From: a virus
Direction: 5' to 3' (one strand)
Length of the DNA: 34,290 bases
Virus record (IMG/VR): IMGVR_UViG_3300029797_000011
Span: 1 to 34,290 of that record
Below the pieces are notes generated by a model, which saw nothing but the letters and a program-made list of their open reading frames with translations, was not told the origin of the DNA and ran no database searches. Position 1 is the stretch's first letter, and each line of letters starts with the position of its first letter. Below, in pieces: positions 2,292-27,033 of this stretch. The translations under genes and the position numbers were made by a program.

Positions 2292-2320
2292 TTGACAAAG
2301 ATAATATATCATAATATCTT
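2292..2320 (+). promoter_or_regulatory. Sigma70-type promoter of the GGCNN-array cassette
   Basis: A perfect -35 hexamer TTGACA (2292-2297), a 17-base AT-rich spacer and a -10 hexamer TATCTT (2315-2320) lie 24 bases after the upstream terminator. Predicted transcription would start near 2327, just before the first GGCNN array, so the array would be in the 5' leader of the 157-aa gene. Confidence 0.72.
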
Positions 2321-2341: not shown

Positions 2342-2389
2342 GGCAGGCAGGGCAAGGCCTGGCTGGGCGAGGCAAGGCGTGGCAGGCAT
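2342..2389 (+). repeat. Short GGCNN pentanucleotide array (array 1)
   Basis: This is a tandem array of ten units. Each begins with GGC followed by two variable bases: AG, AA, CT, TG, GA, AA, GT, AT. Two units are four bases long (GGCA). The array follows the trinucleotide CAT and ends in GGCA-GGCAT-AA. It occupies the leader between the promoter and the 157-aa gene. The identical boundaries of the larger array at 2900-3134 show the two are related elements rather than chance GC-rich DNA. Confidence 0.9.
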
Positions 2390-2411
2390 AAACTAAAACA
2401 GGGAGCATAAG

Positions 2412-2885
2412 ATGGACATAAAAAAAGCAATCCAAGAGAAAGTAAATGAAATCTATAAAGACCAAGGGCAGGTGACGCCATCGGGTTTACTGAATGCGGC
2501 AAAACCCCAAAACAGCCCCATTCATAATGCCTTTGAATGGGATAATAAAAAAGCAGGCCATGAGTTTAGGCTCATCCAGGCCCGGCAGTGGATCAGGAAG
2601 GTCACAATTACCGTTGAAGACCGTGAAGAAAGACTGATCCATGTTCCAAGGATTGAACCAAACGCAGCGACACAGGAAGGCTATTACAAACCGGCATCCA
2701 TCGTTGTCAACTTGCCAGACGAATATCAGAGGGCCAAAATGGCGATGGTGTCAAAGCTGAACTCCGCTCAGTTTGCCCTTGAAGAGCTGGAAACAGCAGC
2801 GGCCAACCGGGGAGACGGACAAAAGGCAGATTTCCAGCGTGCTAAAAAGGCTTTCCAGGAAGTACGGGAAGCTCTTTCCGCTTAA
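2412..2885 (+). CDS. Conserved-looking phage protein of unknown function behind array 1
   Basis: This 157-residue soluble protein is predicted to be mostly helical. The central segment HNAFEWDNKKAGHEFRLIQA (residues 38-57) looks like a constrained phage-protein motif: Asp/Trp/Glu-rich and then an amphipathic helix with Arg-Gln. The tail (residues about 110-157) is a long charged helix, likely coiled coil. There is no signal peptide, membrane segment or recognised catalytic motif. The start has a good ribosome site (GGGAG at 2401-2405). It is the first gene of the promoter-to-terminator cassette and is flanked on both sides by GGCNN arrays, so a role in binding or maintaining these arrays is possible, but that is inference only. 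Confidence 0.85.
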   Translation: MDIKKAIQEKVNEIYKDQGQVTPSGLLNAAKPQNSPIHNAFEWDNKKAGHEFRLIQARQWIRKVTITVEDREERLIHVPRIEPNAATQEGYYKPASIVVNLPDEYQRAKMAMVSKLNSAQFALEELETAAANRGDGQKADFQRAKKAFQEVREALSA

Positions 2886-2899
2886 CAATTGCTCCTCAT

Positions 2900-3134
2900 G
2901 GCAAGGCGTCGCAGGCGAGGCAAGGCTCGGCATGGCGAGGCACGTATAGGCGAGGCACGGCGTCGCAGGCGAGGCAGGCGAGGCGGGTCGAGGCGGGTCA
3001 AGGCTTGGCTTGGCTCGGCGAGGCAGGGCGAGGCATGGCTAGGATGGGCATGGCCCGGCGTGGCGCTGCACGGCGAGGCGCGGCAGGCATGGCTCGGCAA
3101 GGCAGGGATAGTCGCGGCTCGGCAGGGCAGGCAT
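2900..3134 (+). repeat. Long GGCNN pentanucleotide array (array 2)
   Basis: About 48 consecutive units fit the pattern GGC plus two variable bases. Five units are shortened to four bases (GGCA or CGCA), and a few have point changes (GTATA, GTCGA, GTCAA, GGATG, TGCAC, GGATA, GTCGC). An 18-base segment recurs exactly at 2905-2922 and 2959-2976, evidence of internal duplication. The start (CAT-GGC) and end (GGCA-GGCAT-AA) match array 1. Because GCC is rare on this strand, the transcript would be G-rich with little self-pairing. The array fills the gap between the 157-aa and 213-aa genes and is probably transcribed. Confidence 0.92.
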
Positions 3135-3143
3135 AAGTACAAC

Positions 3144-3174
3144 CCGGTAACCGGCTGACCGGAACAACAGCCGG
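3144..3174 (+). promoter_or_regulatory. Overlapping inverted repeats in the leader of the 213-aa gene
   Basis: CCGGT-A-ACCGG (3144-3154) overlaps CCGGCTG (3151-3157), which is perfectly complementary to CAGCCGG (3168-3174) across a 10-base loop. Both hairpins use bases 3151-3154, so they cannot form together. They sit between array 2 and the ribosome site GGAG (3184-3187), where they could modulate translation or terminate array transcripts; there is no T-tract directly after. Confidence 0.5.
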
Positions 3175-3195: not shown

Positions 3196-3837
3196 ATGGC
3201 AAAAAAAGCAGAACAGAAAACAGAATCAATTTCAATCACACCGCCAAATTTTGAGCGGATCGCATTAACCCTTAAAGGCACTGCACCCTTGATGCAGGCC
3301 AGGTTTTCAGCAAAGGCGATGCAGGCAATGATGAGCAAGATGGAGGCTGGCAGCACGGCAGGCAAGGGGACAAAACGCAAAGCACGGGATTTTGAAGATG
3401 ATTTTCAGCAGGCTATGCACAAATCAACCGAAGGATGGATTGGTGTCCCGGCAGCAGCATTGCGGAACGCGTGTATTGATGTTTGCAGGATGACCGGGTT
3501 CAAGATGACCCATGCCAAAATGAGCTTGTTTGTCGAAGCCGATGGACTGGATCAGGTTGACGGCCAGCCGCTTGTCAGAATCGACGCAGGCGAACCGGAA
3601 AAAACAGAAATGGCCACCAGGAACGCTACTGGAGTTGCTGACATTCGAATCCGGCCTATGTGGCGAGATTGGAAATTGAATGTGGTTCTGCGGTATGATG
3701 CCGATCAATTCACAAGCTCAGATGTTATAAACCTTGTGGCAAGGGCCGGTATTCAATGCGGTCTTGGCGAGGGTCGGCCATACTCAAAAAAATCGAATGG
3801 CATGGGGTATGGAACATTTGAAGTCGTGACTGATTAG
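3196..3837 (+). CDS. Unknown phage protein with a RAMP-like glycine-rich C-terminus
   Basis: This 213-residue protein is preceded by AAAGGAG (3181-3187). I see beta-rich segments starting at ALTLKGTAPLMQARF (residues 23-37), a Lys/Arg-rich linker (50-65), WIGVPAAALRNACIDVCR (81-98) and a C-terminal stretch GLGEGRP ... GMGYGTF (189-208). The W-I-G-V-P-A-x-x-L-R-N-A element and the final G-x-G-x-x-R...G-x-G-Y-G-x-F pattern resemble the 'insert then Arg helix' and glycine-rich loop of RAMP proteins (Cas5/Cas6/Cas7, ferredoxin-like RNA binders). This resemblance is my inference; there is no CRISPR locus here, and another fold is possible. It lies behind array 2 and before a ribbon-helix-helix gene in the same unit. 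Confidence 0.85.
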   Translation: MAKKAEQKTESISITPPNFERIALTLKGTAPLMQARFSAKAMQAMMSKMEAGSTAGKGTKRKARDFEDDFQQAMHKSTEGWIGVPAAALRNACIDVCRMTGFKMTHAKMSLFVEADGLDQVDGQPLVRIDAGEPEKTEMATRNATGVADIRIRPMWRDWKLNVVLRYDADQFTSSDVINLVARAGIQCGLGEGRPYSKKSNGMGYGTFEVVTD

Positions 3838-3897: not shown

Positions 3898-4029
3898 ATG
3901 AAGAAAGCGATACAAGTGATGCTCGGAGAAGAAGATATAGCAAAACTTGAAAAAAAGGCAAAAGAACAGGGTCACACAATAAGCTCCTTTGTGCGGCACA
4001 TCATCAAAAGTTTTCTTAAAACATCTTAA
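3898..4029 (+). CDS. Small ribbon-helix-helix (CopG/Arc-like) DNA-binding protein
   Basis: This 43-residue gene reads M-K-K-A-I-Q-V-M-L for the short beta strand, then helix 1 (EEDIAKLEKKAKEQG), a turn (HTI) and helix 2 (SSFVRHIIKSFLK). That is the full ribbon-helix-helix layout; such proteins dimerise and insert the two-stranded ribbon in the major groove. GCGAGG at 3886-3891 serves as ribosome site. It is the last gene of the array cassette, directly upstream of the second terminator, and likely autoregulates the cassette (candidate operators: the inverted repeat at 3847-3880 or sequence at the 2292 promoter). Its target is not shown by the sequence. Confidence 0.78.
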   Translation: MKKAIQVMLGEEDIAKLEKKAKEQGHTISSFVRHIIKSFLKTS

Positions 4030-4053
4030 CCCACCAACCATCCCACCACCAAA

Positions 4054-4080
4054 AGCTCAGGTAACCCCTGGGCTTTTTCT
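4054..4080 (+). terminator. Intrinsic terminator closing the array cassette
   Basis: The stem AGCTCAGG/CCTGGGCT, identical in both arms to the terminator at 2240, closes a TAACC loop and is followed by TTTTTCTTTTT. It ends transcription from the 2292 promoter. The next ~100 bases to 4180 are AT-rich with no convincing promoter that I can see, although portal-operon transcription must enter somewhere. Confidence 0.85.
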
Positions 4081-4180: not shown

Positions 4181-4381
4181 ATGGCATTTATGAGATTTAC
4201 ATTTTCAGTATTTTCAAGAATTAAAGCTATTGCTTTGACCCCTATCGACATTCGCGATTTATTATATTTCATCGGGCTCGGACTCCTTTCTTATGGTGTG
4301 TATCTCATTAAGCCGTATCTTGCGTTCATAGTATCAGGCACAATTTTGATGTTAACCGCTTATATGTCAGGCGGTAAATAA
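4181..4381 (+). CDS. Small two-helix membrane protein upstream of portal
   Basis: This 66-residue protein has a basic N-terminal amphipathic segment, then two predicted transmembrane helices: residues about 25-42 (LLYFIGLGLLSYGVYLI) and 45-62 (PYLAFIVSGTILMLTAYM). It has no signal peptide cleavage site or enzyme motif. The stop overlaps the portal ATG by one base (TAATG). Small membrane proteins are often found just before HK97-type portal genes, and a role in head assembly at the membrane has been suggested for some; I cannot assign a function here. Confidence 0.75.
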   Translation: MAFMRFTFSVFSRIKAIALTPIDIRDLLYFIGLGLLSYGVYLIKPYLAFIVSGTILMLTAYMSGGK

Positions 4382-5586
4382 TGGGCATTGTCTCCAGGAT
4401 GGCCCGGCCCAAAGCGATATCTAAAGAGATGGAAAGGGTATTGCGGGAACAGTTTTCCGGCGGGTCAACTGTTGCCGGAACTTCGGTATCAAGCGATACT
4501 GCAATGCGCCAAGCAACCGTATATTCATGCGTTAACGTACTATCAAGGGCATTGGCGCAGCTTCCATGTCATCTTTACACCATGGAAGGTAAGAACAAAG
4601 TAAAAGCTATAAAAACAAAAGAATACCGTCTAATCCACAACCGGCCAAACGATTGGATGACACCAAGCGAATTCAAATCAATGATGATGAACCACCTTGC
4701 TTTGCGCGGCAACTTCTATGCTTATAAAGGCGGCAAGGGTGGAACGGTATCTGAATTATTGCCTATTCATCCGGACAAAATGCTAAGCGTTTCTCAAGAT
4801 AAAGATTGGTCAGTAAAATATAAAGTTCGGTTTGGCAACGGCGATGAAAAGATATTTGATTCAAGCCGGATACTCCACATAAAGGGCATGGTTTCAGACG
4901 GCTTTACAGGTGTTAACCCAATTCAGTATATCCGGGAATCAATTGGCTTGGGTCTGGCAGCTGAAGAATTTGGTGCAAGATATTTCGGGTCAGGAACGCA
5001 CCCAGGGATGATTGTTGAACACCCAGGCAGGCTTGGAGAAGAGGCTTACAACAACCTCAAGGGATCGCTTAATGATAAGTATTCCGGTTTAGGCAAAGCA
5101 CATCGCCTGATGCTGCTTGAAGAGGGAATGAAAGCACACAAGATCACCATTGACCCAAAAGATGCCCAATTCCTTGAGTTACGGCAATACCAAAGGTCTG
5201 AGATTGTGGATATCTTTTTCGCGATCCCCCTCTCATTGATTAATAAATCAGACGCAAATGCAACATTCGCAAGTGCTGAACAGTTTTCTATCAGCTTTGT
5301 TGTTTATACGCTTGTGCCGTGGTTGGTATCAATCGAAGAGGCTTTGAATAGGGACATTCTTTCAATGCAGATGCAGGAAAACTATTACTACAAATTCGTT
5401 ACACAGGGACTTTTGAGGGGGTCTTTCAAGGATCAAATGGATGGGTTTGCAACTGCTATAGATAAAGAATTGATGAATCCAAACGAATGTCGGGAGCTTT
5501 TGGAGATGAACCCATATGATGGCGGTGACGAATACCGCACACGAACCAGCACGGTAAAAACAGACATAGGGAAGACAGATAAATGA
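4381..5586 (+). CDS. Portal protein, HK97-like family
   Basis: At 401 residues this is the usual length for an HK97-type portal, the dodecameric ring at the head vertex through which DNA is packaged and ejected and which nucleates the capsid. The family pattern is clear: an N-terminal AMRQATVYSCVNVLSRALAQ segment (residues about 41-60), LIHNRPNDWMTPSEF, an HIKG element, and the C-terminal ARYFGSG...GMIV region, followed by RSEIVDIFFAIP and the SAEQFSISFV helix. It overlaps the small membrane gene by one base and the protease gene by four (ATGA), so portal and protease are coupled. Confidence 0.95.
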   Translation: MGIVSRMARPKAISKEMERVLREQFSGGSTVAGTSVSSDTAMRQATVYSCVNVLSRALAQLPCHLYTMEGKNKVKAIKTKEYRLIHNRPNDWMTPSEFKSMMMNHLALRGNFYAYKGGKGGTVSELLPIHPDKMLSVSQDKDWSVKYKVRFGNGDEKIFDSSRILHIKGMVSDGFTGVNPIQYIRESIGLGLAAEEFGARYFGSGTHPGMIVEHPGRLGEEAYNNLKGSLNDKYSGLGKAHRLMLLEEGMKAHKITIDPKDAQFLELRQYQRSEIVDIFFAIPLSLINKSDANATFASAEQFSISFVVYTLVPWLVSIEEALNRDILSMQMQENYYYKFVTQGLLRGSFKDQMDGFATAIDKELMNPNECRELLEMNPYDGGDEYRTRTSTVKTDIGKTDK

Positions 5587-7660: not shown

Positions 7661-7689
7661 GGGTTTTGCTTGATATTTTAAGGCTTTTA
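7632..7689 (+). other. 10-bp inverted repeat spanning the capsid stop codon
   Basis: TAAAAGCCTT (7632-7641, inside the capsid gene) is perfectly complementary to AAGGCTTTTA (7680-7689) across a 38-base loop that contains the capsid stop (7658-7660). It could be an mRNA-stabilising 3' hairpin or a scar of the endonuclease insertion. There is no clean T-tract, so it is not a standard terminator. Confidence 0.5.
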
Positions 7690-7715
7690 TGATATCTTAC
7701 TTAGACATAAAAACA

Positions 7716-7776
7716 GGCATGGATAGAGTGGTAACCCTATCCATGCCCTTACCACAAGATTACCTATTGGGAGGTA
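7716..7776 (+). promoter_or_regulatory. Structured leader of the HNH gene with mutually exclusive hairpins
   Basis: A perfect 11-bp stem, GGCATGGATAG (7716-7726) with CTATCCATGCC (7737-7747), has in its loop GTGGTAA (7728-7734), which is perfectly complementary to TTACCAC (7749-7755). The second pairing would enclose the right arm of the first stem, so the two hairpins compete. Further down, TACCT (7761-7765) pairs with AGGTA (7772-7776), covering the GGGAGG ribosome site at 7769-7774. The layout resembles a translational switch restraining the endonuclease. Confidence 0.6.
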
Positions 7777-7781
7777 GTGTC

Positions 7782-8927
7782 ATGGCTAAGTCTGTTGTAT
7801 CAAAATGTCCTGGTTCGAGTCAAGTTAAAAAGACCTGCGAAGTTTGCGGAACCGTGTTTTGGGTCAAGCCCTCTCATGCAGAAAGAAGAAGAACGTGCAG
7901 CAGGAAATGTATGGGTCTATTGCAGAGGAAAACAGTAATATTAAACTGTAGTTTTTGTGGCAAAGAAATTGAAAAACGCCCATCTCAAATGAAGCAATAC
8001 ACACAATATAAATCGCAAAACTTTTTCTGTGATAAGATTTGCCAAACCAAGTTTCACGCTGGCGACGGAAACCCAAACAGGCGAAAAGAAAACGAGGTTG
8101 AATTGAAGTGCCAAGGTTGTGGGCAAGTTTTTTACAGGCCGCAGTGGTTGTCCTTCAATCCAGGCACAAAAAAACCCATTAAGTTTTGCAGCCGCGAGTG
8201 CTATAGGCAACACTGTCTTGAAGAGTCAGGCGCAATGTTTAGTTGTGATGTCGAGGTTGTTTGCGCATGGTGCGGAAAGCCAAAAAAAGTAAGTAGCCGC
8301 AATTATAGAACGTGTAAATCTTTTTTTTGTGACCAAAAATGCTTCCACGATTATCGGTCTGTTTTTAACTCTGGTGAATCTGCACCTGGATACAGGGGCG
8401 GATTTGCTCTTAACGACAGGCCGTCTTACGAGCATTACAGTGGGCAGATAAAGTTCAAGGTAAAAACAAAAAAATCTGCTGACGGCCTTTTTTTAGATGT
8501 TATGTGTTCATATTGTGGAAAGTGGTTTGAGCCGACACGGAAATATCTTATGAATGTCGTGAACAGATTTAAATACAGTTCCGGCGACTTAAATTTCTAT
8601 TGCTCAGATGGATGCAAAAAAGCATGCCCTGTTTTTCGGCAACAAAAATACCCCAAAGGCTTCAAACGAGCATCCTCTCGCGAAGTCTCCCCGGATCTCA
8701 GGCAAATGTGCCTTGATCGTGACGGATGGGAATGCCAGCGGTGCGGAAAAACAGAACCGCCCTTGCACTGTCACCACATTGACGGCGCTGTGCAGAACAA
8801 AATTATCAGTAACGACCTTGAAAACGTGATCACATTGTGTAAGGCGTGTCACAAAGAGGTCCACAAACAAGACGGCTGCAGATACCATGAATTGCAGTGC
8901 AAGGAAAAGGAATCGTGCGCAGCATGA
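7782..8927 (+). CDS. HNH endonuclease with five tandem zinc modules (putative homing endonuclease)
   Basis: With the start at ATG 7782 (GGGAGG seven bases upstream; a longer in-frame ORF begins at 7689 but lacks such a site) the protein has 381 residues. It contains five CxxC...CxxxC modules in a row (CEVCG/CSRKC, CSFCG/CDKIC, CQGCG/CSREC, CAWCG/CDQKC, CSYCG/CSDGC), probably treble-clef zinc knuckles for DNA recognition. A C-terminal HNH domain follows: CQRCG, HCHHIDG and ENVITLCKACHKEVH, with the catalytic His and zinc Cys intact. It lies alone between capsid and head genes, typical of a free-standing homing endonuclease, and it appears intact. A restriction or packaging role is less likely. 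Confidence 0.85.
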   Translation: MAKSVVSKCPGSSQVKKTCEVCGTVFWVKPSHAERRRTCSRKCMGLLQRKTVILNCSFCGKEIEKRPSQMKQYTQYKSQNFFCDKICQTKFHAGDGNPNRRKENEVELKCQGCGQVFYRPQWLSFNPGTKKPIKFCSRECYRQHCLEESGAMFSCDVEVVCAWCGKPKKVSSRNYRTCKSFFCDQKCFHDYRSVFNSGESAPGYRGGFALNDRPSYEHYSGQIKFKVKTKKSADGLFLDVMCSYCGKWFEPTRKYLMNVVNRFKYSSGDLNFYCSDGCKKACPVFRQQKYPKGFKRASSREVSPDLRQMCLDRDGWECQRCGKTEPPLHCHHIDGAVQNKIISNDLENVITLCKACHKEVHKQDGCRYHELQCKEKESCAA

Positions 8928-9475: not shown

Positions 9476-10366
9476 ATGAGTTATCAACCTAAATGCTATC
9501 GAACAGACGGTGGAGATAAAACCGTTATTGCAGATGGCGGAACATTTGAAATAGAATATGGCGCAACCATTACGTTGCCCATTGCAGGAGCAAATACCGG
9601 GCGAGGGCCATCTATTGGCTTGTGGTCCGGTTGCCCCTGGATGGATTATGTTCTTGACCCCACAAAGGGCATGGCATATTTCAACGATTTCCATGGTAGC
9701 CACGCACTGGCAAACAATCAAACTAAAACGTATCTTGCGAATGGTGTCAGCGGCTTCACCGGTGCAACTGCCGGATCAACAATATCAACCATTGCGACCG
9801 ATCCCAATGGCGTACTGAAACTTGCAACAACAACCGATAATGAGTCTGTCGCTATACAGACGCTCGGTGCCCTTGATACAGCAGGGCAATTTGTTTTGAC
9901 ATCCGGTAAAAAGTCGTGGTGGGAAACAAGGATCAAAGCAAAAAACATCACAGATGCAAAGTTCGGATTGTTTTGCGGATTCGTTGAGCCTGGTACATTG
10001 GCGCAAGACGGCGTTATGACTGCAACAGGCACCTTGCAAGACAAAGATTATATCGGCTTCCTACGGGTAGAATCTGATGGTGACAAACTTGACACTGTTC
10101 ACCGCAAAGCCTCCGGCGCAGCTGTCGTGGTTCAGGCCGACGCAGTATCGCTTGTTGCAGACACATATATCAAAGTGGGTGCATATTGCGACGGGACAAC
10201 CGTCACCTTTTTTGCCAACGGTGAGGCTTTAACAAGCACATGCCTATTGGCTACGGCTACAGTCCCAACGGGTGAAGAAATGGCCTTTCAGTTTATTTTA
10301 AACGCAGGCCACGGCGACGATTGCGATGCACATATAGACTGGGTAAGAGTTGCCAGGGAATATTAA
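9476..10366 (+). CDS. Head-associated protein with lectin-like (concanavalin A/LamG) jelly roll
   Basis: This is a 296-residue protein. Residues 1-60 are an N-terminal beta segment with FEIEYGATITLPI. Residues about 65-296 look like a concanavalin A/laminin-G type jelly roll: a large sandwich with KKSWWETRIKAKNITDAKFG, IGFLRVESDGDKLDTVHRKA, a 'KVGAYCDGTTVTFFANGEAL' strand pair and the closing DWVRVAREY, a frequent ending of phage LamG-like virion proteins. It may decorate the capsid and bind carbohydrate on cells or surfaces. No catalytic residues were recognised. It sits between two small beta-rich head proteins. Confidence 0.8.
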   Translation: MSYQPKCYRTDGGDKTVIADGGTFEIEYGATITLPIAGANTGRGPSIGLWSGCPWMDYVLDPTKGMAYFNDFHGSHALANNQTKTYLANGVSGFTGATAGSTISTIATDPNGVLKLATTTDNESVAIQTLGALDTAGQFVLTSGKKSWWETRIKAKNITDAKFGLFCGFVEPGTLAQDGVMTATGTLQDKDYIGFLRVESDGDKLDTVHRKASGAAVVVQADAVSLVADTYIKVGAYCDGTTVTFFANGEALTSTCLLATATVPTGEEMAFQFILNAGHGDDCDAHIDWVRVAREY

Positions 10367-12188: not shown

Positions 12189-12584
12189 ATGCAACAACTC
12201 TTAACATCAATATACACTGCATACAACACCGACGCAGATTTAAAGGCTGCGCTGCCAGGTGGGTTGTATCTTGAGTTAGCACCGCAGACATCAACGATGA
12301 CATACGGAATTTACCAGGTAATAACCGGGCGACCGGATTATATGTTGGCCGGTGAATATTATGAAATTTTGCTGATACAATTTGATATATATGCGGCCAC
12401 AAACTCGTTAAGACTGTCTGCTTATGATAAATTACTTGCAGTTTATGATCATGCGAGGTTGATATCAACAGGATATACGCCTGTGGTCATGGAGCGGGTT
12501 AATCAGCAATTGGTCAGAGACGGGGCACAAAATGAGATTTTCCGTGCGATTGTTGAATATAGCGCAACTTGGAAAAAAACATGA
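12189..12584 (+). CDS. Tail terminator/completion protein (DUF3168-like)
   Basis: This 131-residue protein begins MQQLLTSIYTAYNTDADLKA and has GGLYLELAPQTSTMTYGIYQ and then alternating beta strands (YYEILLIQFDIYAA) plus an amphipathic helix (SLRLSAYDKLLAVYDHA). This alpha-beta layout fits the DUF3168/tail-terminator class that caps the growing tail tube. Position after the gp10-like gene agrees. The assignment is by pattern and synteny, not by a catalytic signature. Confidence 0.8.
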   Translation: MQQLLTSIYTAYNTDADLKAALPGGLYLELAPQTSTMTYGIYQVITGRPDYMLAGEYYEILLIQFDIYAATNSLRLSAYDKLLAVYDHARLISTGYTPVVMERVNQQLVRDGAQNEIFRAIVEYSATWKKT

Positions 12585-12622
12585 AGACATACGGATTGAA
12601 CATTACGGCAAGGGGAGCAAAA

Positions 12623-13837
12623 ATGATAACAGATAAGATAAGCGTGATTATACCGGTTGTCAGGCCAGAATCAGCAGACAGGTGCATTAAATCCGTCAAA
12701 AAATACCTCCCAGAGGCGGAGATCATTTCGGCAGTTGATGTGGATAGAATCGGTTGCCCGAGAATGGTAAACATTCTCACAAAAGAAGCAACCCGGGAAT
12801 GGATCCTATTTTTAGGGGACGATACAGAACTTGTTTACGGTTTTGATATCGCGCTTAATGCGGCAGTTGAGAAACTCGAACAGGGATGGGGCGTTGTTGG
12901 TCTTAACACCGAGCCCGGGAACACAAAAGCGCATTGGATGGCGCACAGGAAAATGCTTGATATACTGCCAGATGGTGTGTTTTTTTCGGAAGAATATCAG
13001 CATTGCGGGTGTGATGATGAGCTTTTTGATATTGCGTCTGAAAATGCTTTGTGGGTGTTTGCAGAAGACGCGCTTGTGAAACATCATCACCCGGTTAATA
13101 AATGCGCAAGTGATGAGTTCTATGAGTCTGCTTATTCAACTGACAGAAAATCTCACGACAAGGAGACATATTACCAGCGCAAACGTGCAAGGAAGAAAGG
13201 CGGTATAGCAATTGGCTTTCCATTGGTTGATGATCGCGTACCATCGCCATTTTTTACATCTTTCGCATGCATGGAAAAACCAGATCAATACACGTTACTT
13301 GTCCCTCGGTTTCCGCATGGTCCATGGACGGGATCTATCGCAGATGCACGAAACAGCCTGGTGCAACAGGCGCTTGATGAAGGCTGTTCACATCTTTTGA
13401 TGCTCGACACTGACCAGGTTTACCCGGCAGACACGCTTAAAAAGCTTTTGTCACACAAAAAAGATGTTTGCGGTGTCCGGGTTCATCGCCGGTGGATGCC
13501 ATTTGACCCGATTTTCTTGCGAGGGAATATTGGAAAATACAAATCGGTTTCTGAGGATGAAATGTATTCCGGCGATCTGATCCCGGTAGATGCGACTGGT
13601 ACCGGGTGCTTGTTGTTTGACATGGATGTTTTTTTGAAAGTTGCCCATCCATGGTTTGAATTTGGGTTAAATAACGGGAAACCGGTGGGAGAGGATATCA
13701 ATTTTTGTTCGAAAGCAAGGCAAGCTGGGATTGAAATCTTTGTTGATACGAGTATAGAAGTAGGTCATTTGACAACGATGCAGGTCAATAAATCACTGCA
13801 TCAAATATGCAAAAAAATGAAATCAAATATGTCTTAA
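12623..13837 (+). CDS. Two-domain GT2-like glycosyltransferase
   Basis: With the start at ATG 12623 (strong AGGGGAG at 12611-12617; an ATG at 12581 overlaps the previous stop but has only a weak site) the protein has 404 residues. It contains two GT-A-type domains: domain 1 from ISVIIPVVRPESADRC with LGDDTEL (D66/D67) as the metal/sugar-nucleotide site, and domain 2 from YTLLVPRFPHGPW with MLDTDQVYP (D262/D264) and GTGCLLFDMDVF. There is no membrane segment, so it would be cytoplasmic. Its place between the tail terminator and tail tube genes suggests it glycosylates a tail or capsid protein, but a role in host surface change or DNA modification cannot be excluded. Confidence 0.85.
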   Translation: MITDKISVIIPVVRPESADRCIKSVKKYLPEAEIISAVDVDRIGCPRMVNILTKEATREWILFLGDDTELVYGFDIALNAAVEKLEQGWGVVGLNTEPGNTKAHWMAHRKMLDILPDGVFFSEEYQHCGCDDELFDIASENALWVFAEDALVKHHHPVNKCASDEFYESAYSTDRKSHDKETYYQRKRARKKGGIAIGFPLVDDRVPSPFFTSFACMEKPDQYTLLVPRFPHGPWTGSIADARNSLVQQALDEGCSHLLMLDTDQVYPADTLKKLLSHKKDVCGVRVHRRWMPFDPIFLRGNIGKYKSVSEDEMYSGDLIPVDATGTGCLLFDMDVFLKVAHPWFEFGLNNGKPVGEDINFCSKARQAGIEIFVDTSIEVGHLTTMQVNKSLHQICKKMKSNMS

Positions 13838-24637: not shown

Positions 24638-24907
24638 ATGCTTGAAAAACAAATAGTAACAGATAAAATTGAAATTCTGGAATGCGGAACGATTCAGATA
24701 AGGGAAGTAACAAGGATCTTAGAAGATGGTGTCATAATATCACAAAAAAACACAAATAGAAGTATCATAGAACCTGATCATGACGTATCCATGGAAAGTG
24801 AAGAAATTAAAGGAATTGCATCAATTGTAAGGACGCCTGAAAAAGTTCAAAAGTACATTGAAAAAAAGATGGAAAAAATAAACAAAAACACAGATAAGGT
24901 GAATTGA
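24638..24907 (+). CDS. Small protein between two fibre genes, unknown function
   Basis: This protein has 89 residues if started at ATG 24638, which follows GGGGG with short spacing; an in-frame ATG at 24626 overlaps the previous stop by one base and would add four residues. It is a charged alpha/beta sequence: [40 protein letters not shown], then a Lys-rich helix ([15 protein letters not shown]). No known domain was recognised. The location between fibres suggests a fibre chaperone or small tip protein. It overlaps the next gene (TGATG). Confidence 0.7.
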
Positions 24908-27033
24908 TGCCTAATTATCCAATCAAACTTAATGGATCTGAATCACCATCTTCTCCATTGACTTGGGATATTGTTACAAGGTCAGGTAAAGGATCAAATT
25001 TATCTGCAACCGATTACGACAATTCTATGATCGCAATCAGGGAAACTCTGAACGATTTAAACAACCGGATTTTAAACATATCGTCTGACCATATTTTTAC
25101 CAATACGTCAGAAAGAGATAGTTATTTTACGTCGAATCCATCCGAATTAGTTGACCAGCTTTATATCGTTGTCGATGAACAATTACAGCAATATAATGAC
25201 TCTGCGTGGGAGGACCGGTCAATAGTCGTTACCGGTCCGCAAGGAGATCAAGGAGATGCTGGCCCTGGCCTGGAATATAATTGGGATGGTACGGAGCTTG
25301 GCGTCAGGGTAGATGGTGACACGGTTTATGTTTATACTGATCTGGTTGGTTCGCAAGGAATCCAAGGAGAAACCGGACCACAAGGGGAAACCGGTCCGCA
25401 AGGAATCCAAGGCATTCAAGGGGAACAAGGTATTCAAGGAATCCAAGGCATTCAAGGCGAAACTGGTCCACAGGGCGAACAAGGCATTCAAGGTGATCAA
25501 GGTGCCGCATGGGATCAGTGGCAAGGTGATTGGTCTGCCGGGACGTATCAAGTTCTTGATGCAGTTACATATAGCGGTTCTTCATGGATAGCTAACACAA
25601 CAACAACGCAAGAGCCTTCCGGTTCCGCAACAGATTGGGACTTGTTGGCGCAAAAGGGAGTTGACGGGGCCGGGGCAGGTGATGTTATCGGACCGGCTTC
25701 AAGCACTACAGGTAATTTCGTTTCTTTTTCTGATACAACCGGGAAGAATGTTCAGGATTCCGGGAAAAAAGCAACAGACTTTGAAACTACAGGCGCGGCA
25801 GCAACTGTCCAGGGGAACCTTAACACACATACCGGGAACACAACAGATGCCCACGGTATAGATGGCAAGGTTGATAAAGAGACTGGAAAATCTCTTGCCT
25901 TAGACACTGAACTTGCCAAGATTCACGAACAATCCCACGGCTTGGGGAGCAATGATCATACAGCTACAACATTAGCAGATTTAAACACCAAAATATCAGA
26001 TGCAACGTTAATTGATACCGGTGATGCCAGGTTATCAAATGATAGAACACCTACAGAACACGGAAATGACAAACACAGCACGAACTATGAAGCTGAATTA
26101 GGGAATCCTACATCAGATGGCCAAGTGCTATCTTCAACAACTGGTGGGGTACGATCTTGGGTTGATATTGAGACAGAAAGCCCGTTAACAGTGTCAGCAA
26201 CAGAACCAACAACTCCGACATACTTCTGGTATGATACCGGGGACGAAAGTTTGCGTGTATATAATGGGTCTGCGTATGTACCGGCTATGCTCATGATTGA
26301 TGGCGCGAAGGCGTACGCTTATCAAGTCATTATTGGTTTAGGCACGGACGACGGGACATGGCTGGAAAACTGGTTGGATGATATCACAAATTTATCTGGG
26401 TTTAACCAAGCCGTAGCTGACGCAACGTATATGACATACATCATTTCGTTAATAGGGGCCATGACTTCAATATCAAACAGTTCTTCTGCTATGGAGTCTA
26501 TCCTTTCGAGTTTAACTGCGCGAACACTTCTCTTTGCATCGCAATATTGTTTGTCAGTTGTATGGTCAACTGGAACGGCTGTTGATGCAATAGCTAATTA
26601 CTTTAACGACTTTTGTGATAAAGAAGGTGTAAATAGTATACAGGGTAAACTTAAAATTCCATTTGATTGTTCTATCATATCAGGCGTTACGTTAAAGTGC
26701 AGAACAAGTTCTACTAATAGTGCTTACAATGCTAAATACGCAATGTTCGTGTATGATGGCACTACTATAGGAACTAAATTTATGGATGATTATGATAATG
26801 AGAATTGGACTCTATATAGTAATTCAACAGCAAACAGTGAGTTATCAACCGGTGGCACTAATGATGGTTATTTAGAGTTGGTTTATGATGTATACTATGT
26901 TCTAAATGAAAATATAGTAGTTGACTATGTAGCATCAGGGGAATCACCAGATGGAGCTAAACCAGTTATTTCCTTTTCTGGTAATGGAACAACAAGCCCT
27001 CACTATTTCTGGGGACTTAGATTCACAATATAG
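24907..27033 (+). CDS. Tail fibre with collagen-like triplets and carbohydrate-binding module
   Basis: This is a 708-residue trimer-forming fibre. Collagen-like Gly-X-Y appears as four triplets ([12 protein letters not shown], about 25237-25272), a break ([17 protein letters not shown]), then 18 triplets ([12 protein letters not shown]...). These are followed by a CBM5/12-type module ([20 protein letters not shown]...[11 protein letters not shown]) and a helical/linker region with [20 protein letters not shown]. The C-terminus (residues about 540-708) is beta-rich and ends [10 protein letters not shown], likely the receptor-binding tip. I chose ATG 24907 (TGATG overlap) over the TTG before it. 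Confidence 0.85.

Follow-up and report, generated by a model that had tools for sequence, protein, structure and literature searches.

The window, i.e., the complete 34,290-base viral record IMGVR_UViG_3300029797_000011, was concluded with a probability of about 0.93 to carry a VIPR (Viral Interference Programmable Repeat) system, comprising a vipr gene, a vap-like accessory gene and arrays of guide RNAs (vrRNAs). The reason for this assignment is the RAMP fold predicted for the product of the vipr gene together with the match of its family profile to the Vipr protein of Escherichia phage SUSP1. VIPR was defined in PMC13142463 (bioRxiv 2026.04.26.720920), the main text of which describes vrRNAs made up of GGY/NN repeats that guide Vipr to double-stranded DNA, whereby each NN pairs with two bases, one base is skipped between the pairs and competing phages are repressed. 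According to the same main text, a vrRNA holds 9-16 repeat units, VIPR types I-VII are distinguished, Vipr was identified by experiment as an RNA-guided DNA binder, and the system was proposed to be a viral forerunner of the CRISPR RAMPs and reported as the first RNA-guided system to use a gapped code. The evidence in hand for the window consists of Vipr homology, the RAMP fold, the linkage of arrays and genes, the array grammar, the covariation of an RNA element and one target of a sister system. Against the VIPR reading stand array 1, which with 7 full units lies below the published 9-16 and possesses no structured tail, the degenerate anchors and the unbroken 21-unit stretch of array 2, an accessory protein that is unlike that of SUSP1 in sequence, the lack of a target match for the window guides and for two other sister guides, and the fact that the one target identified is a single independent event. 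The system was reached from the raw sequence, independently of protein annotation.

Arrays and the two linked protein families

Two GGCNN arrays are located on the plus strand of the window and adjoin two linked genes, as the initial annotation had it. Array 1 (2342-2389) is composed of a GGCA tetramer, a guide of 7 GGCNN units, a second GGCA tetramer and a final GGCAT, and its 10 GGC triplets follow each other in steps of 5 nt (7/9) or 4 nt (2/9). Array 2 (2900-3134) comprises 47 units including four tetramers (CGCA at 2910 and 2964, GGCA at 2973 and 3082) plus a terminal GGCA at 3126. The repeat unit of the arrays is 5 nt; the 39 GGC triplets of array 2 are exactly 5 nt apart in 27 of 38 steps, the remaining steps being mostly 10 or 15 nt, hence the degenerate anchors stay in register. 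As many as 34 of the 49 GGCNNGGC pairs of the window fall within the two arrays; its reverse-strand counterpart was counted only 6 times across the whole window. The reported near-absence of GCC from the array strand was borne out, with one GCC being present per array, and so were the common borders, i.e., CAT before both arrays and GGCA-GGCAT-AA at the end of both. The two-base spacers had been described as varying freely; they are indeed hypervariable, but their variation is not uniform, as the dinucleotide use in the window's clade is skewed, with AA, GC, GA, AT and AC being enriched and C-first dinucleotides being rare. In the guide-RNA reading, the variable dinucleotides constitute the information-carrying part of the arrays.

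When IMG/VR was scanned with a DNA-only pattern of seven GGCNN units in a row, at least 120 viral loci were returned. Among the 120 matches listed, profile searches revealed a homologue of the 213-aa protein in 81 and the 157-aa family in 27, and fragments of the 213-aa family were detected in two more of these matches, in one case on the opposite strand. When all proteins of the pattern loci, the homologue loci and the window were compared with each other, the 213-aa family ranked first, with 80 of its 81 members being encoded on the GGC-reading strand. In the reverse direction, arrays were evident at once in 9 of the 11 loci fetched by protein similarity; the tenth, L128, which is the nearest relative of the window, possesses an array with more degenerate anchors, and degenerate array-like stretches were found in L135. 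INPHARED (50,697 records) contains the 213-aa and the 157-aa protein in 33 records each, and both sets agree in the organisms counted, namely 27 Mycobacterium, 5 Gordonia and 1 cyanophage; GGCNN arrays are present in all three of the INPHARED loci read, i.e., those of Cyanophage Cy-LDV1, Mycobacterium phage Pippy and Gordonia phage ODay. The earlier proposal that the arrays are linked to homologues of both proteins is hence upheld in related phages, where the arrays are not absent beside these homologues.

As separate observations, 37 of the 120 pattern matches listed (L008-L127; e.g., L008, L018, L043, L083) hold an array without a recognisable vipr, which may reflect truncated contigs, coding repeats, chance or a Vipr too distant for the profile, and a family of about 192 aa is encoded directly before arrays in L030 (479-1057), L081 (42-620) and four other loci, which may be a further accessory gene.

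The vipr gene (3196-3837, plus strand; phrog_4652) encodes a 213-aa, predicted RNA-binding protein with a RAMP fold. Its AlphaFold2 model, for which 83 homologues served as input, has a pLDDT of 93, and the Foldseek ranking is led by Csm3/Cas7 subunits from CRISPR complexes of types III and VII. Searched against the PDB, the family profile identified 36pp, the SUSP1 Vipr protein, as its only real match (E 1.5e-38). Since a profile built from the window's own clade alone reaches SUSP1 Vipr at 2.4e-7, and since the single sequence aligns with it directly (blastp, 37% over 43 aa of the conserved C-terminus, E 4.8e-10 in a two-sequence search), this match is independent of distant family members. 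A glycine-rich loop and a thumb domain belong to the description of Vipr; near the C-terminus, the family possesses invariant glycines in GxGEGRPxSxxSxGxGxG. Searches of Pfam and PADLOC gave zero matches for the 213-aa or the 157-aa protein, and the PHROGs family of the former carries no functional name. For the modules of Pippy, ODay and Cy-LDV1, the Vipr identity ranges from 30 to 62%. On the grounds of homology and of the structural model, the 213-aa protein was assigned as Vipr, a RAMP akin to the class 1 CRISPR backbone Cas7/Csm3.

The accessory gene (2412-2885, plus strand; phrog_15946) encodes a helical protein of 157 aa and co-occurs with vipr across phages; by analogy it is taken to occupy the place of the VIPR accessory gene (vap). 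Comparison with the SUSP1 accessory protein gave an hhalign probability of 0.1% and no blastp signal, and a very distant relation of the two may exist. The fold search returned no confident match for the 157-aa protein and a weak winged-helix likeness only, which would agree with a DNA-binding accessory protein as found in some VIPR types and is not evidence for one.

Punctuated guides and a covarying pseudoknot

Units of four bases had been recorded as occasional within the arrays; their existence was confirmed, and they do not represent noise, since tetramers of the window's clade recur mostly every 7-13 pentamers. Application of a unit parser to 53 arrays of the window's clade revealed that GGCA or CGCA accounts for 201 of 221 tetramers and that 74% of the inter-tetramer intervals measure 7-13 pentamers, as compared to 26% when units were shuffled within arrays (1000 times, with 38% as the highest shuffle); the coefficient of variation (CV) of the intervals is 0.46 observed versus 0.97 shuffled. 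The same spacing was found in other loci with the accessory gene (75% versus 26% shuffled). The GGCA/CGCA tetramers are punctuation that closes guides of about 7-13 units, and they thereby provide a simple rule for cutting multi-guide arrays into guides, as is needed for target prediction.

Cut in this way, array 1 holds one guide of 7 units (2346-2380, plus strand; NN = AG AA CT TG GA AA GT). The cleanest guide of array 2 (2914-2963, plus strand) consists of 10 units between tetramers (NN = GA AA TC AT GA AC TA GA AC GT) and decodes to the target GANAANTCNATNGANACNTANGANACNGT. It is followed by a one-unit fragment between tetramers (2968-2972) and by a tetramer-free stretch of 21 units (2977-3081, plus strand), about twice the clade's usual interval, which probably represents two fused guides or a decayed border, whereas the last guide of array 2 (3086-3125, plus strand) is made up of 8 units (NN = AT TC AA AG TA GC TC AG). 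In L128, the Vipr of which is 90% and the accessory protein 57% identical to that of the window, the array borders are kept, yet zero runs of four NN are common to both; such a turnover of spacers is the pattern expected of guides that change. In L167 (about 1713-1975), a low-GC system from Bacteroidota that belongs to the same clade, the anchors are GGT, with the GGCA tetramers apparently being kept as punctuation.

Between array 2 and the ribosome-binding site of vipr an H-type pseudoknot is located (3144-3174, plus strand; CCGGT-AA-CCGGCTG-ACCGG-AACAA-CAGCCGG), the geometry of which recurs between array and vipr in L128, L132, L145 and L124, with a slightly different form in L129 and L130. 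Within five sequences, 60 of 60 cells are paired and 8 of the 12 pairs have undergone two-sided changes; this covariation score was reached by 0 of 500 shuffles, and sliding the pairing partner destroys the covariation. As the five sequences were selected for folding, it is the covariation and not the number of systems that is the argument. Neither array 1 nor most other arrays of the clade are followed by this pseudoknot, and Rfam returned nothing above the gathering score. The element may serve as a vrRNA tail, as a vipr leader or as both.

These data bear on the question whether the VIPR locus of the window's phage has decayed and no longer works, a reading which accommodates the degenerate anchors, the stretch of 21 units without tetramer, the one-unit fragment at 2968-2972 and the shortness of array 1. 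It is considered unlikely, because the reading frames of both vipr and the accessory gene are intact, the pseudoknot is intact and carries compensatory changes, and non-GGC anchors, amounting to 18% in the window's clade, are at the usual level there. Some of the array 2 guides may nevertheless have decayed.

Proposed mechanism and the target of a sister guide

By analogy to the published experiments with SUSP1 and type II systems, the unit would be transcribed and arrays 1 and 2 would yield guide RNAs, along which Vipr subunits would line up at a ratio of one to each GGC anchor and expose the NN pairs. Every NN would pair with two bases of the double-stranded target DNA and one target base would be skipped between pairs, as a consequence of which a guide would tolerate codon wobble changes. 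The ribonucleoprotein, supposedly assisted by the accessory protein, would find matching DNA on either strand and block the transcription of competing phage or prophage genes. Within the window's clade, an array would thus be a run of several guides, each being closed by a GGCA (or CGCA) tetramer.

The guides of the window were searched in IMG/VR. Here, the first nine NN of guide 2914-2963 gave 0 matches; for the stretch 2977-3081, the first nine NN matched 3 contigs, all of them in DG-rich coding stretches and without extension, the middle matched 2 contigs that share one homologous site, again without extension, and the last nine NN gave 0 matches. Since about one match is expected by chance for 18 fixed bases in IMG/VR (estimate), no target of a window guide is claimed. 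The window guides gave nothing above background when compared with the window itself. Two guide patterns of Mycobacterium phage Pippy yielded in IMG/VR one match, located in a repetitive marine phage gene and judged to be chance, and none, respectively. A Bradyrhizobium guide gave 3 matches in 266 genomes versus 2 control matches, a second Roseococcus guide gave 1 versus 11 control matches, and the comparison of all arrays with all loci collected, with skips of 0-3 bases, was dominated by low-complexity matches.

One target was identified for Roseococcus sp. SDR (L146), a cultured carrier from the window's clade that possesses a punctuated array upstream of vipr. Searched with a one-base skip and a tolerance of two mismatches, its 11-unit guide (NN = GA AT AT GC TG CT AC CA CT CA AT) found 11 sites, distributed over 9 of the 299 Acetobacteraceae genomes searched, including its own, whereas the reversed control found 0. 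In the sites listed, the first ten NN match in 20/20 bases and the last NN alone fails; the chance expectation for 20 fixed bases in this set was estimated to be about 0.002 matches. The six regions fetched read GAG ATG ATC GCN TGG CTN ACG CAY CTN CAG (EMIAWLTHLQ), whereby the skipped bases are codon third positions throughout, and it is there that the genomes differ; with 0, 2 or 3 skipped bases, the best matches attain only 15/22. The target gene encodes a Sak4-like ssDNA annealing protein (phrog_124, AAA_24) and lies among phage-like genes. The own-genome target (L180, about 9718-9750; G267 C3:235717-235748) is part of the same Roseococcus genome as the VIPR locus and apparently belongs to a co-resident prophage. 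As the 11 sites are all copies of one gene family they count as one independent event, and this event is one success among several tries, since the guides of the window, those of Pippy and two other sister guides gave no credible target. The match starts at the first unit past a tetramer and stops one unit short of the next one, and therefore supports both the one-base skip and the view that tetramers delimit the guides of the clade. Being natural and wobble-phased, the target supports the one-base-skip rule beyond the experimentally tested systems.

The initial annotation had suggested a protein covering about five nucleotides of single strand, which fits Vipr; its proposals of a loading site, an RNA decoy or sponge and a recombination hot-spot were not retained, as Vipr homology and the sister target indicate guide RNA, a role that was not among its proposals. 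Accordingly, the possibility that the arrays are a protein-binding RNA or DNA scaffold or decoy, coated by the RAMP-like protein in order to, e.g., control its own operon and devoid of any guide role, is judged highly improbable: the 5-nt period, the strandedness and a pseudoknot at the start of vipr would suit an RNA to which Vipr binds, but a pure scaffold has no need of spacers that encode a phage gene 20/20 in wobble phase, as those of the sister guide do, and a homologous Vipr was shown to be an RNA-guided DNA binder (PMC13142463, main text). An ordinary minisatellite or recombination hot-spot without linked function, for which the fast shift of array length and content between close relatives (L129/L130, window/L128) might speak, can practically be dismissed in view of the strand-specific tie to a single protein family, the strict grammar and the natural target in the sister system. 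A role as packaging site was dropped as well, since it leaves several arrays per genome and their diverse gene contexts unexplained.

Relation to known systems and genomic setting

The VIPR-defining features found in the window are a Vipr RAMP homologue distinct from Cas5/6/7, GGY/NN repeats beside vipr, with a 10-unit guide in array 2, the 157-aa gene as accessory gene beside vipr, and hypervariable NN, for which a one-base-skip target was seen with one Roseococcus guide and with none of the window guides. As to the features of type II, a pseudoknotted tail, there present on every vrRNA, follows array 2 only, and the accessory protein shows no detectable similarity to that of SUSP1; on these sequence grounds the window system is not filed under the SUSP1-like (type II) subtype. 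SUSP1 (type II; KT454805; 36pp) shares with the window a homologous Vipr, GGY/NN arrays that flank the genes, a small second gene, the location on a phage and, by eye, a pseudoknotted element 3' of the array in the same strand order. It differs in that its anchors are mostly GGT and its four vrRNAs of ~100 nt are separate, each with its own tail, whereas the window possesses GGC anchors, joined guides split by GGCA tetramers and a pseudoknot only at the array before vipr. Pippy, ODay and Cy-LDV1 encode both proteins and carry GGCNN arrays with GGCA tetramers as in the window; they differ in phage, host and guide content. The proteins of their modules (Pippy, L141 2105-2345; ODay, L142 3115-3300; Cy-LDV1, L139) are annotated as hypothetical; Mycobacterium smegmatis and Gordonia phages with the same two-gene module are cultivable carriers, with Pippy offering itself as a test case.

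It is tentatively put forward, as a possibility less probable than its opposite, that the clade represents an architecture not described in the main text of PMC13142463, characterized by head-to-tail guides with GGCA-type separators, one pseudoknot coupling the array to vipr translation and an accessory protein unrelated to that of SUSP1. The coupling possibly serves a feedback control by the ribonucleoprotein. The "staggered arrays with overlapping vrRNAs" mentioned in that text may or may not be the same as the tetramer-separated guides. The tetramer punctuation and the leader pseudoknot may both extend what is known of VIPR.

The window system resembles the class 1 CRISPR backbone (Cas7/Csm3) in the fold of the RNA-coating subunit and in the periodic reading of the guide, and it differs by a 5-nt instead of a 6-nt period and by the fixed GGC inside the guide. 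Within the window, neither a CRISPR array nor other cas genes were found, the neighbours being terminase, HTH, RHH and portal genes; a CRISPR reading was dropped owing to the 5-nt repeat unit, the lack of cas neighbours and the lack of a PADLOC match. The RNA bound by TRAP (trp RNA-binding attenuation protein) likewise has triplet anchors with two-base spacers; TRAP belongs to a different protein family and its spacers are not known to carry target information. A TRAP-like reading was also dropped.

Just upstream of array 1, a sigma-70-like promoter was identified (2292-2320, plus strand; TTGACA, 17 nt, TATCTT; 10/12 consensus), which is weak when taken alone, as the consensus scan found 3 versus 1.7 expected. 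Two terminator-like hairpins on the plus strand, one upstream of the unit (2237-2264) and one closing it (4051-4077), share the stem core GCTCAGG...CCTGGGC; here the scan found 2 versus 3.2 expected, and position, not score, is the argument. A gene for a 43-aa protein with weak ribbon-helix-helix (RHH) matches (3898-4029, plus strand) is probably the last gene of the VIPR transcription unit. The order promoter, array 1, 157-aa gene, array 2, 213-aa gene, RHH gene and terminator reads as the layout of one putative transcription unit, and the matching hairpins that bracket it are perhaps a trace of its insertion. In this uncultivated tailed phage, the unit is preceded by small and large terminase (10-2010) and an excisionase-like HTH gene (2010-2210) and followed by the portal gene (4381-5586). 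Elsewhere in the window, the head gene block includes a 412-aa protein (7689-8927) that combines an HNH endonuclease domain with Cys pairs suggesting zinc motifs and is likely a homing endonuclease; a 422-aa glycosyltransferase-like protein (12569-13837, weak Pfam matches) is encoded among the tail genes, and a probable tail fibre (24904-27033) contains collagen-like GPQGxQG repeats (at 25240-25493).
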